The notes under the pieces were generated by a model. The model was not told where the DNA came from. It was given only the letters and a program-made list of their open reading frames with translations, and made no database searches. A program made the translations under genes and the position numbers. Shown here in pieces: positions 41,308 through 51,207 of a stretch of 64,000 nucleotides of DNA. Numbering within the stretch: the stretch's first letter is position 1; every line of letters begins with the position of its first letter. Origin of the DNA: Methylobacillus methanolivorans (GTDB lineage: Bacteria > Pseudomonadota > Gammaproteobacteria > Burkholderiales > Methylophilaceae); NCBI RefSeq assembly GCF_020531845.1, contig NZ_JAJAVF010000002.1, forward strand, positions 1,027,543 to 1,091,542. The letters are read 5' to 3'.

Positions 41308-41985
41308 TCACGAACGGAATAGTCGACTGTACTGTGTTTCATGCCTACACCCCGCAATCGTCAACGCCGGACAAAAATTACTGATCATGAAATCCGGCAT
41401 ACGCATCGCCTCTTCCACCAATGCGGGAATCCTGTCGGCTACATCCAGCAATATCTTCTGCCCTGCCACCTGCCCAAGCGGCACCGCCTTCATCGCCGCG
41501 CTGGCCTGGTTTTCCAGCCACGACCAGGCATAGGCCTGCAAAGCATCTTGCTCATCAATTCCCCAAGCCTGGCTGATACCCGCATACAAAGCTGGAAATG
41601 CAGCATTGGGTAATTGCTCCATCAGCGTTTTCCAAATGCCTGGCAAGTCATCAAACTCCAGCAGCAAACGCTTGAGCGAATACCCCATTTGCCGACTCTC
41701 GGCCAGGGCCTCGGCATTGTCACGCCCAGCCAGGTAAAACGCATTCCACTCATTCAATGCAGCAGCATCGCCACGCTGCCAAGCCCGGTAACATCTGCTC
41801 AACAAGGGCAACTCATAACTGCCTTGGTAAATCTGCAATACATCGCCTATCCAGGCCTGTGCACTGGCAAGATCATGCACTTCGCCTGACTCTATGCCCC
41901 ACTCCAGCCCCTGCGAATAGCTATAAGCTCCCACCGGCAACATAGGACTTGCCAGTTGTAGCAGCCGCACCAGTGATTTATTCAT
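41308..41985 (-). CDS. ureF: Urease accessory protein UreF
   Basis: A 225-residue all-helical chaperone starting [28 protein letters not shown], the classic UreF N-terminus. It bridges UreD-urease and UreG. The start overlaps the ureE stop by 8 bases; longer in-frame readings go back through ureE and are not real. Confidence 0.95.
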
Positions 41986-42469
41986 GCGCCCGCGAGCGTG
42001 ATGGTGGCCGTATTGATGGCGCATCGTCATCATGGTGGTGCCTGTGCCCGCCACCATAAGCGCCAGCCTCCGGCTCAAAAGGCGCCATCTGCCCTTCCAC
42101 CTGAACACCCAGCCCGAGCAGCATCTCCTGCAAGACATGGTCCTGCTCCAGCCGCAGCCAGCCTTCGCCCACCTCAAGTGGCACATGACGATTACCCAGG
42201 TGATAAGCCGCCCGCGCCAGCTCGCGCGGTGTCGATGCCGTCACTCGCAACACAGGCTCATCCGCCGCGACCACTTGCACCACGCGCCCGTCCTCCGCCT
42301 GCAACACATCGCCACCACGCAGCACCGTACCGCGCTCCAGCAACAAGGCTGCCTCGGTGCCTGAAGCCAGCGTAACGCGCAAACGGCTCTTCTGCCTGCG
42401 GTCAAATGGCAACACCAATTGGTCGTCAACCTGGCTGGCACTTTCTATTTTCTTGCTGATCCCTAACAT
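41978..42469 (-). CDS. ureE: Urease nickel metallochaperone UreE
   Basis: A 163-residue protein with the N-terminal peptide-binding domain ([15 protein letters not shown]), the central metal domain ([20 protein letters not shown], with its conserved His) and a short His/Asp tail (HRHHHDDD) for extra nickel. It is separated from ureC by a 98-bp palindromic element. Confidence 0.94.
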
Positions 42470-42515
42470 TCAAATTCCATATCGACCAATATTTGTTTTA
42501 ACCACTATCCCTTAA

Positions 42516-42613
42516 GCGTGCAGGATAGTGTTCATGGCAAGGCGCTTTAGCGCAGACAGTACATTAAGTACGGCAAGCTAAAGCAACGCCGCCAGGGACA
42601 CTAGCCTGCACGC
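42516..42613. repeat. Correia-core-like palindromic element A (ureC-ureE)
   Basis: A 98-bp imperfect palindrome. Outer arms 42516-42538 and 42591-42613 pair over 23 bp with three mismatches. The core holds the blocks CAAGGCGC, GCAGACAGTAC, AGTACGGCAAG and GCAACGCCGCC, shared with element B and, from memory, with the neisserial Correia element. It starts one base beyond the ureC stop codon. Confidence 0.82.
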
Positions 42614-42614
42614 G

Positions 42615-44318
42615 CTAAAACAGGAAGTAGCGTTGGGCCATGGGCAGCACCTCCGCCGGCTCACAACTCAGCACCATGCCATCCGCCCGCACTTCATAGG
42701 TTTCCGGGTCAACGTCAATCTTGGGCATCCAGCCGTTGTGTACCATATCTGACTTCTTCACCCCACGTGTGCCCTTGATCGCCACCAGTGGCTTTTTCAG
42801 GTTCAATGCCGCGACTTCCGGGTTGCTCAACGCCGCCTGCGAAACAAAGGTCACGGAAGTCTGCAACGCCCCGCCATAGGAACCAAACATCTGACGGTAA
42901 TGCACAGGCTGCGGAGTCGGGATAGAGGCATTCGCATCACCCATCACCGCAGCCGCGATCATGCCGCCCTTGAGTATGGTCGAAGGCTTGACGCCAAAAA
43001 ATGCCGGACGCCAGAGCACCAGGTCAGCCAGCTTGCCCACCTCAATTGAACCAACCACATGGCCAATACCATGCGTCAACGCAGGATTGATGGTGTATTT
43101 GGCGATATAGCGCTTGATGCGGAAATTGTCGTTGCGCGCACTGTCTTCGGGCAATGGGCCGCGCTGCACTTTCATCTTGTGCGCGGTCTGCCAGGTGCGG
43201 ATCACCACTTCGCCCACGCGGCCCATGGCCTGCGAGTCGGACGACATCATGGCAAACGCGCCAAGGTCATGCAGAATATCTTCTGCCGCAATCGTCTCTC
43301 GGCGGATGCGGCTCTCAGCGAATGCCACATCCTCAGCAATCGCTGGGTCCAGGTGGTGGCAAACCATGAGCATATCGAGATGCTCGTCTATGGTATTGAT
43401 GGTGAAAGGCCGGGTCGGGTTAGTGGACGATGGCAACACATTGGGATGCCCCGCCGCGCGGATGATGTCCGGCGCATGGCCGCCGCCTGCACCTTCGGTA
43501 TGGAAGGTATGGATGGTGCGGCCCCTGAACGCATCGAGCGTGGTTTCGACGAAGCCGGATTCGTTGAGGGTATCGGAATGGATCGCCACCTGCACGTCCA
43601 TTTCCTCGGCGATGCTGAGGCAATTGTCGATCGCGGCCGGCGTCGTGCCCCAGTCCTCATGCAGCTTGAGCCCGACCACGCCCGCCTCGACCTGCTCGCG
43701 CAAAGGCTGCGGCAAGCTGGCGTTGCCCTTACCGAGAAAGCCTAAATTCATCGGAAAGGCATCTGCCGCTTGCAGCATGCGGTGAATATGCCAGGGGCCT
43801 GGCGTACAGGTAGTGGCAAAGGTGCCGGTCGCCGGACCAGTACCGCCGCCTATCATCGTAGTCACGCCCGACATCAGCGCTTCCTCAATCTGTTGCGGAC
43901 AGATGAAATGAATGTGGGTGTCTATGCCACCCGCGGTGACGATCATGCCCTCGCCCGCGATCACCTCGGTGCCCGCGCCAATAGCAATCTCCACGCCAGG
44001 CTGGATATCGGGATTACCTGCCTTGCCGATGGCCGAGATATAACCGCCCTTGATGCCGATATCGGCCTTGACGATGCCCCAATGATCAACAATCAACGCA
44101 TTGGTAATCACGGTATCGGCCACTTCACTCGCTACGCCCTGGCCTTGCCCCATGCCGTCACGGATCACCTTGCCGCCGCCGAACTTCACTTCTTCACCGT
44201 AGATGGTGTAATCCTTCTCCACCTCCAGCCACAGCTCAGTGTCAGCCAGGCGCATGCGGTCACCCACCGTCGGGCCGAACATTTCAGCATAGGCGCGCTT
44301 GTCGATTTTCACACTCAT
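42615..44318 (-). CDS. ureC: Urease alpha subunit UreC
   Basis: A 567-residue catalytic subunit. Visible active-site parts: HIHF nickel ligands, the carbamylated Lys in GLKLHEDWG (near residue 218), the flap region [16 protein letters not shown] with its His, and the conserved MVCHHL Cys/His loop. Length matches bacterial UreC. It hydrolyses urea to ammonia and carbamate in the cytoplasm with UreA and UreB. ATGA overlap with ureB. Confidence 0.97.
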
Positions 44319-44623
44319 TTCAGCGCCCCCATGACCTTACCGGCAAACCCATACACTTCACGCTTTCCGCCCAATGCCACCAATTGCACGGTCCGGCTCT
44401 GCCCCGGCTCGAAGCGCACCGCCGTGCCTGCGGCAATATCGAGACGGAAGCCATAAGCCAGTGGCCGCTCGAACGACAAGGCCTCGTTGGTCTCGTAAAA
44501 ATGATAATGCGAACCCACCTGAATAGGCCGGTCGCCGGTATTCGCCACTTCCAGCGTCACCGTCTCGCGCCCGTCGTTAAGCAGGATGTCGCCTGCGTCT
44601 ATGTTCATTTCACCTGGGATCAT
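44315..44623 (-). CDS. ureB: Urease beta subunit UreB
   Basis: A 102-residue small subunit starting [16 protein letters not shown], the usual UreB N-terminus, with VGSHYHFYE and [21 protein letters not shown] lies 8 bases before ATG 44623; the GTG at 44641 would add six residues. It is preceded by two tandem palindromic elements rather than the usual short gap to ureA. Confidence 0.95.
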
Positions 44624-44688
44624 CTGTATTGCTCCAGTCACGCTAATTTACTTTTTTCAATTTCACACTGTCCTGAGTGGTTCACAAT

Positions 44689-44749
44689 CCATTGCTAGCA
44701 AGGCGCGCCGACACAGACAGTAGTCCAGCAGAACACAAGCCAGCGATGG
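44689..44749. repeat. Degenerate Correia-core-like element C (ureA-ureB)
   Basis: Short arms CCATTGCT (44689-44696) and AGCGATGG (44742-44749) enclose CAAGGCGCGCC and CACAGACAGTAG, recognisable but decayed versions of the blocks in elements A and B. Weaker pairing extends outward to about 44672-44769, where element B begins. Confidence 0.55.
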
Positions 44750-44768
44750 CTTTTCATTCACGCCTCAA

Positions 44769-44871
44769 GCATGGCACTGCAAACGTGGAGGGCAAGGCGC
44801 AAATTCGCAGACAGTACGTATGAGTACGGCAAGAATTTGCAACGCCGCCATCCGCGTTTGTAGTGCCATGC
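44769..44871. repeat. Correia-core-like palindromic element B (ureA-ureB)
   Basis: A 103-bp palindrome. Arms 44769-44793 and 44847-44871 pair over 25 bp with three mismatches, but their sequence is unrelated to the arms of element A. The core blocks CAAGGCGC, GCAGACAGTAC, GTACGGCAAG and GCAACGCCGCC are the same. It starts one base beyond the ureA stop codon. Confidence 0.82.
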
Positions 44872-44872
44872 C

Positions 44873-45175
44873 CTACGGAATCGGTTGGTGGACGGTGACC
44901 AGCTTGGTCCCATCTGGAAACGTCGCCTCCACCTGTATCTCCGGAATCATCTCCGGCACACCCTCCATCACGTCGTCACGGCTCAACAGCGTCGCGCCAT
45001 ACCCCATCAACTCCGCCACCGTCTTGCCGTCACGCGCGCCTTCCATGATCGCGGCGCTGATAAACGCAATCGACTCCGGGTAGTTGAGCTTGAGGCCGCG
45101 CGCCTTGCGCCGCTCCGCGAGCAGGGCTGCGGTAAAGATCAGCAGCTTGTCTTTTTCTCTTGGGCTTAATTCCAT
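44873..45175 (-). CDS. ureA: Urease gamma subunit UreA
   Basis: A 100-residue subunit with [44 protein letters not shown] and the C-terminal VTVHQPIP, all diagnostic for UreA. It lies 75 bases after ureD. The unusually long 249-base gap to ureB is filled by palindromic elements B and C. Confidence 0.97.
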
Positions 45176-51146: not shown

Positions 51147-51207
51147 CAGATTTCTCCTGAAATTAAAACTAAAAAAGTGGGGTGTTCAACTAATTAACTA
51201 CCGAACC

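Follow-up and report, generated by a model that had tools for sequence, protein, structure and literature searches.

Palindromic elements with a Correia-like core in the urease operon of Methylobacillus methanolivorans: probable copies of a miniature transposable element with replaceable ends

The urease operon and its two elements

The window analyzed here is a stretch of 64,000 nucleotides from Methylobacillus methanolivorans, and all positions given below without a genome name are those of this window. Its urease operon, encoded on the minus strand, contains two palindromic elements, A (42516..42613, 98 bp) and B (44769..44871, 103 bp). They share one hairpin tip of about 57 nt, similar to the core of the neisserial Correia element, and each carries this tip on arms that are self-complementary and unrelated to those of the other. 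Both probably represent old copies, locally retained, of a miniature transposable element of the non-autonomous kind, and the Correia element would be one branch of the same superfamily.

Element B directly follows the natural stop codon of ureA (urease gamma subunit, 44873..45175) and A that of ureC (alpha subunit, 42615..44318), with ureB (beta subunit, 44315..44641) in between and ureE (41978..42469) as the next gene downstream of A in operon direction. The outer end of each right arm is 1 nt from the stop codon, at 42615-42617 for ureC and 44873-44875 for ureA. Neither protein appears truncated by the element: UreC, with the C-terminus QRYFLF, could be aligned through residue 567 to solved ureases, and UreA was aligned over residues 1-99 of 100.

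The two elements have the same layout on the plus strand. The 5' side consists of an arm ending in GGC, an AA bulge, GGCG, a 7-bp inner stem, the internal loop GCAGACA and GTAC; the apical loop is followed by a second GTAC, by GGCAA opposite GCAGACA, and by the other half of the inner stem, a CAA bulge, CGCC and the second arm. In A, the arms are 23 nt long and 87% complementary (42516-42538 and 42591-42613), and the left arm, which resembles a terminal repeat, is orthologous in M. rhizosphaerae, M. caricis and M. gramineus. The core of A (42539..42590) begins with the AA bulge (42539-42540) and GGCG (42541-42544), continues with the stem CTTTAGC (42545-42551), GCAGACA (42552-42558), GTAC (42559-42562), the loop ATTAA (42563-42567), GTAC (42568-42571), GGCAA (42572-42576) and the stem GCTAAAG (42577-42583), and closes with the CAA bulge (42584-42586) and CGCC (42587-42590). 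In B, inverted-repeat arms of 25 nt, 88% complementary (44769-44793 and 44847-44871), enclose a core (44794..44846) with the stem CAAATTC (44800-44806) / GAATTTG (44833-44839) and the loop GTATGA (44818-44823). The sequence-only reading of this stretch had listed the core blocks in this order, together with the inner helices TTTAG/CTAAA in A and AAATT/AATTT in B, and all of these were recovered; its assignment of B to the minus strand was mistaken, as B lies on the plus strand in the same orientation as A. Both elements are short, bounded by terminal inverted repeats and too small to hold a transposase open reading frame (ORF), as is characteristic of miniature inverted-repeat transposable elements (MITEs). 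Predicted folding was more stable than that of 200 out of 200 dinucleotide shuffles on either strand, with z values of -6.87 (A) and -8.78 (B) on the plus strand and of -5.76 and -6.05 on the minus strand.

A known Rfam RNA was rejected as an identity for the elements: a scan of 42300-45100 gave no family above threshold at A or B, the best hit being mir-23 with 21.6 bits against a cut-off of 52. Elsewhere in the operon, RF02514 (5' ureB sRNA) matches 43880-44165 on the plus strand, antisense to ureC, with 95.3 bits. The large-subunit gene of the window corresponds to Helicobacter ureB, so that homology of the coding sequences may explain this match.

The urease region aligns at 72-87% with those of M. 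rhizosphaerae, M. gramineus, M. caricis and M. arboreus. Between ureB and B lies a decayed third copy (44686..44752, plus strand), with only its left half recognizable (44697-44723). An intact counterpart of this copy is found in M. caricis and M. arboreus at the position occupied by B in the window, in M. rhizosphaerae and in M. gramineus; the position after the ureA stop codon has therefore held different elements. An empty site was also identified (51197..51206), beside the stop codon of a gene for an FmdB-type zinc-ribbon protein that is full length by its family model. An element is present at this site in M. rhizosphaerae and M. caricis, and the window is devoid there of the core and of both arms. 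In the loci read, the arms of A and B were seen at orthologous sites only, no genome-wide search for these arms having been made.

Models of the core and kinship with the Correia element

Two alignments and the corresponding covariance models were used. Alignment A1 (model R1) holds 48 non-redundant copies and derives from 137 copies, from which 8 tagged as Correia were left out; L016 and L042 were dropped and the two elements of the window were added. Two Correia-like copies (L008 and L010) escaped the tag and are present in A1 and R1. Alignment A2 (model R2) is restricted to 34 of the 48 rows of A1. It includes A and B and excludes L008 and L010, any record named Neisseria, Andreprevotia, Aquitalea or Cardiobacterium, and all viral contigs. 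The invariance of GCAGACAGTAC, GTACGGCAAG and AACGCCG in both alignments was imposed by the search patterns; AAGGCG, the stems and the arms were free to vary. With R1, A was matched over 42525-42604 (89.2 bits, E 2.7e-22) and B over 44780-44860 (88.1 bits, E 5.5e-22), both being part of the training set, and the decayed third copy reached 13.5 bits (E 0.41), which is not significant alone.

That the core is related to the Correia element (CREE, NEMIS), as the sequence-only reading had proposed, was borne out by a model blind to Correia. R2 gave neisserial Correia copies 49-74 bits and Cardiobacterium copies 86-88 bits, a single further copy scoring weakly at 25; the scored loci had been fetched by the core pattern or by R1. 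As named Neisseriaceae and Cardiobacteriaceae were absent from its training set, these scores uphold the kinship. The two cores would thus be homologous or strongly convergent, homology being the simpler reading of the sequences.

The core is composed of the same blocks as that of Correia, in identical order, and both kinds of element are palindromic and about 100 bp long. Several features nevertheless set A and B apart. By eye, their arms are unrelated to the 26-bp Correia inverted repeat (TATAGTGGATTAA...), the inner stem of Correia is one base longer on one side, and no TA duplication lies beside A or B; the flanking duplication observed in M. arboreus is TNA. Families with ends other than TATAG abut stop codons in one orientation, unlike the Correia copies of N. 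sicca. In the passages of the literature that define it, Correia is characterized by the 26-bp repeat and a TA duplication (PMC3898611, PMC5039591), and by this definition A and B themselves are not Correia elements. Passages of PMC2649163 treat Correia as a neisserial element, the mobilizing mechanism of which has not been determined; the IS5-family transposase IS1106 is suggested in a passage of PMC3898611.

Distribution and copy number

A pattern of the tip avoiding the canonical Correia flank matched at least 119 stretches in a collection of one genome per species, this set being a sample of the collection and not a total. Janthinobacterium, Herbaspirillum, Undibacterium, Duganella, Andreprevotia, Aquitalea, Methylobacillus, Methylotenera, Candidatus Glomeribacter, Cardiobacterium, Neisseria and Pseudomonas are among the matches listed. 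A looser pattern matched 11 viral contigs, of which by eye six have Correia arms and five have other arms (two of the five being one locus). With R1, 2-148 copies per genome were counted in 20 genomes, all picked for holding the core; these numbers are lower bounds, as at most 150 candidates were scored per genome. At E 1e-6 and with stricter filters, matches were obtained in 92 of 300 genomes from the order of M. arboreus and in 36 of 398 from its phylum, M. arboreus included in each and 11-15 candidates being scored per genome. A 58-nt composite query matched none of 5,426 E. coli genomes, none of 50,697 phage records and 8 of 72,556 plasmid records. Two records of that plasmid collection, NZ_CP119140.1 and NZ_CP119142.1, named Neisseria gonorrhoeae, are chromosome-sized (about 2.17 Mb).

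The occurrence of the core outside Neisseria, also part of the earlier proposal, is supported by these pattern and model matches. Its presence in Methylobacillus, Janthinobacterium, Herbaspirillum, Andreprevotia, Cardiobacterium and some Pseudomonas makes the Neisseria copies part of a wider family, and gives access to harmless hosts for laboratory work. In the excerpts of the open-licence PMC literature that were covered, no description of the core outside Neisseria was met.

Arms as terminal repeats

The arms had been described as private to each copy. They do differ fully between A and B; in the genomes examined, however, arms are lineage-specific terminal repeats, some of which occur in dozens of copies per genome. 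By eye, M. arboreus has at least four arm families that are unrelated to one another. The end pattern of the main family matched 87 times in this genome, against 19 times for the reversed pattern, and that of the abundant family of Andreprevotia lacus matched 87 times in its own genome, against 4. In two Herbaspirillum genomes together, the A. lacus pattern was not above its reversed control (15 and 17 against 20 and 10).

A candidate autonomous partner with matching ends was recognized in A. lacus. Both ends of an 868-bp element (G013, C46:162467-163334) match the abundant family over the searched 15 nt; the element carries DUF4096 and DDE_Tnp_1 ORFs, is of IS5 type and is flanked by TTA. One of its ends agrees with the best MITE copies at 20 of 24 positions, the first 18 nt being shared. 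This matching of a resident IS5-type element in one genome provides a testable candidate for the mobilizer. The likeness to IS5-family MITEs has a limit: an ordinary MITE derives from its insertion sequence (IS) by internal deletion, and here a single core is found with many unrelated ends.

In M. arboreus, 19 loci were fetched and 9 of them are two-ended short palindromes with the same ends as elements of that genome. By eye, parts of the core or of its rim persist in all nine, in one case no more than a short piece, and eight are flanked by a TNA duplication (TAA or TTA on both sides). Since ends are shared among copies, TNA flanks those of M. arboreus and the arms are absent together with the core at the empty site, the element behaves as a unit in which one core is joined to different ends.

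Position and orientation at stop codons

In mRNA sense, for which the strand bearing GCAGACA has to be reverse-complemented, elements tend to start directly after a stop codon, as A and B do. This tendency was measured on 211 distinct copies, of which 183 have a recognizable partner end and 28 were left out; by this selection, the two outer ends of a copy resemble each other, with no more than 4 mismatches in 14. A stop was counted when an open frame of at least 150 codons ended between -8 and +3 of the element end, open frames standing in for annotated genes. A stop was found at the boundary on the sense side in 51 of the 183 copies and on the mirror side in 12, including 4 with stops on both sides (binomial p 7e-7). 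The ratio was 62 to 18 with a frame threshold of 100 codons and 46 to 9 with 200 codons, and remained 43 to 12 after similar C-termini were collapsed (p 3e-5). Among the 137 copies of non-TATAG families, 50 sense and 11 mirror boundaries were counted. Two further counts are less reliable: 47 against 8 of 136, where the mirror boundary was set too near in families whose right arm is longer, and 29 against 10 of 206, based on automatic and noisy arm ends. As a matter of scale, a stop was present in a zone of 38-46 nt in 46 of 120 copies (frames of at least 120 codons, element ends unmatched), and at 60 of 3200 random positions (frames of at least 100 codons). On the plasmid records checked, of which one is almost unannotated, two copies are intergenic and not beside a stop, and no clear replication-strand trend was apparent by eye among 16 listed copies of 43 on one complete chromosome.

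The strongest competing account of this rule, although it falls short of even odds, combines target preference with purging: a TNA-cutting transposase would land in TAA, TGA or TTA-G, and other insertions in genes would be lost. TNA duplications fit insertion into a stop codon with the frame preserved, and so does the use of all three stop kinds at the boundary (TAA 19, TAG 18, TGA 14). Because the counted copies have similar outer ends on both sides, such a process predicts little orientation bias, whereas 43 sense against 12 mirror boundaries were observed. The oriented stop-codon rule outside TATAG-ended families, together with a Correia superfamily having replaceable ends, is what is new in these results, and the rule is a property that can be tested directly.

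Covariation of stems and arms

That the stems covary around conserved unpaired blocks had been suggested from A and B alone, and this was supported in both alignments and in place. Among the 48 copies of A1, pairs -2 to -7 of the inner stem and most arm pairs covary, with permutation p values mostly at the floor of 0.0005. The covariation score was 0.508 in A1, against 0.144 for shuffles and 0.09-0.14 for slid controls, and 0.481 in A2, against 0.146 and 0.08-0.14. Cells changed on both sides numbered 304 in A1 (shuffle mean 97, slid controls 68-112) and 202 in A2 (65 and 41-75, respectively). Pairs -2 and -3 switch between Watson-Crick and G-A/A-G in 13 and 17 of the 48 copies. As relatedness inflates the shuffle statistics, more weight is given to the slid controls and to changes observed in place. 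At the ureC site (element A), 5 of 14 variable pairs show a compensated change between Methylobacillus species (four sequences, two nearly alike), and at the ureA site (element B) 3 of 8 do so (three sequences); the remaining variable pairs at both sites display one-sided changes or broken pairs.

Covariation of the arms could also arise without selection, if template switching in quasi-palindromes copied one arm onto the other and if repeats read by a transposase had to match anyway. The arms are indeed inverted repeats across families, and several of the in-place changes at A and B are paired; this account is possible, albeit less likely than not. Alone, it would not keep an asymmetric internal loop, two bulges and tandem G-A mismatches at -2/-3; moreover, the 7-bp inner stem covaries though it lies outside the terminal repeat.

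Interpretation

The explanation preferred here, to which a probability of about 0.75 is given, is that A and B are old retained copies of the miniature element introduced above. It draws on observations made at two levels. For the superfamily these are the core, the covarying stems, the multi-copy spread, the filled and empty site, the TNA duplications of one genome, the matching IS5-type ends of another and the oriented preference for stops. For A and B themselves they are the core, the arms, the position at stop codons and the compensated changes in place between species. Each member would consist of two modules: terminal arms that are specific to a lineage, and a hairpin tip that is widely shared and has the form AAGGCG-stem-GCAGACA-GTAC-loop-GTAC-GGCAA-stem-CAA-CGCC. 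The terminal arms would let a resident DDE transposase move the element, and A and B would have arrived by such transposition. Their hairpins may then have been kept for an action at the start of the 3' untranslated region, most likely comparable either to that of stop-proximal repetitive extragenic palindromic (REP) hairpins, which would slow the terminating ribosome, or to that of Correia RNA, which would offer an RNase III site. Such an action could set the balance of ureA, ureBC and ureE within one transcript. REP hairpins at most 15 nt from a stop codon stall ribosomes, according to passages of PMC12306157, and Correia transcripts are cut by RNase III in Neisseria, according to passages of PMC10969869.

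A number of observations weigh against this explanation. The pairs with any both-sided change numbered 19, about the level of the shuffles (mean 18.3). The single empty site at 51197-51206 could be a deletion in the lineage of the window. No clean duplication was seen by eye at the flanks of A and B. For the main family of M. arboreus, no pair of ends at the distance of an IS was seen by eye except two complete elements 1 kb apart. The orientation rule fails in TATAG-ended families (1 sense and 1 mirror boundary in 46 copies) and in the N. sicca Correia copies (1 and 1 in 29). Proximity within 80 nt alone differs little between sense and mirror sides (71 and 57 of 136), so that the orientation resides in exact adjacency. 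Finally, the main difficulty for the functional part lies in the polarity of the mismatches, the sign of which speaks against the mRNA hairpin as the sole object of selection. Over 69 families, with those counted that have well-paired arms, the arms read on the plus strand contain 51 G-T against 14 A-C and 38 G-A against 8 C-T mismatches, and without the pairing filter the arms of the 48 copies contain 57 against 29 and 48 against 21. In the inner stem, 48 G-A and 0 C-T mismatches were counted, and no G-T/A-C bias was found in this stem alone (6 against 9). The p values of these polarities are optimistic, since families have mismatches in common by descent and are thus only partly independent.

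The arm mismatches favour a fold in the strand that lies opposite the upstream mRNA, and strand-specific DNA or antisense RNA fits this polarity better than an action on mRNA. A bolder proposal, tentative and judged improbable on the whole, follows this line: the Correia core would be a module of ancient origin that folds on one strand and has passed from one transposon end to other, unrelated ones. A conserved factor, of the host or of transposition, would recognize it in single-stranded form, as template-strand DNA or as antisense RNA, and would both place it after stop codons in a fixed orientation and keep it there. If true, this would represent a mobile module of a new kind, a hairpin tip that can be carried about without being tied to a particular transposase family. 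Two known systems can be compared. REP sequences and bacterial interspersed mosaic elements (BIMEs) are likewise intergenic palindromes near stop codons; the present elements differ from them by a longer hairpin, a conserved tip, terminal repeats and target duplications. The attC sites of integrons are variable-arm hairpins found after stop codons, of which the template strand folds, and are similar to the present elements in these respects; however, no attC R boxes were noticed by eye, and the conserved part here is the tip rather than the outer ends.

The sequence-only reading had offered two interpretations, a structured RNA or an insertion into the loop of pre-existing hairpins. The first survives in part, as the stems do covary, but a plain cis-acting RNA is not the simplest explanation given the polarity just described. 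In its strict form, by which a non-mobile regulatory or protein-binding RNA would have evolved, or have been transferred, separately at every site, it has little probability. The conserved internal loops, the compensated changes at the orthologous urease sites and the fixed orientation after stop codons would suit it; dozens of copies per genome, many of them equal-scoring, terminal repeats with TNA duplications, an empty site and a mismatch polarity opposite to the mRNA would not. Intrinsic transcription terminators are more improbable still: stable hairpins do stand directly after stop codons, but A and B lie inside an operon and, at the 51 boundary copies, no T-run follows the hairpin (T fraction 0.16-0.27 at positions 3-10, at least 5 T in the first 8 nt in only 4 copies). 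Least credible of all is insertion of the core into the loop of host hairpins, which would account for wholly different arms around a common core, since the one empty site seen holds neither arm rather than an intact hairpin, the nine short M. arboreus palindromes keep core or rim pieces, and the same ends recur many times per genome (87 against 19 and 87 against 4 for the reversed patterns in M. arboreus and A. lacus) and match an IS5-type end in A. lacus.

Arrays and composite arrangements

Several arrangements of the elements were observed in addition. In Cardiobacterium valvarum (L131, L132, G001), 1.4-kb units with TATAG ends are present; unit L131 contains IS630-type ORFs and an IS5-type DUF4096 ORF, and its end matches 19 of 24 bases of each arm of the Cardiobacterium family. 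Two complete inverted elements about 1 kb apart, which could mobilize the DNA between them, were found in C. valvarum (L099) and in M. arboreus (G007, C11:385252-386365). Tandem arrays (L020, L082, L124) comprise 4 copies in Janthinobacterium sp. 344, 3 in Duganella phyllosphaerae and 3 in A. lacus. In the A. lacus genome (L308-L327, G013), 29 further copies, with scores of 38.8-40 bits, have a variant core: a longer stem centred on CCGG takes the place of the GTAC tip. The 20 copies fetched are nearly identical and probably represent a recent burst.

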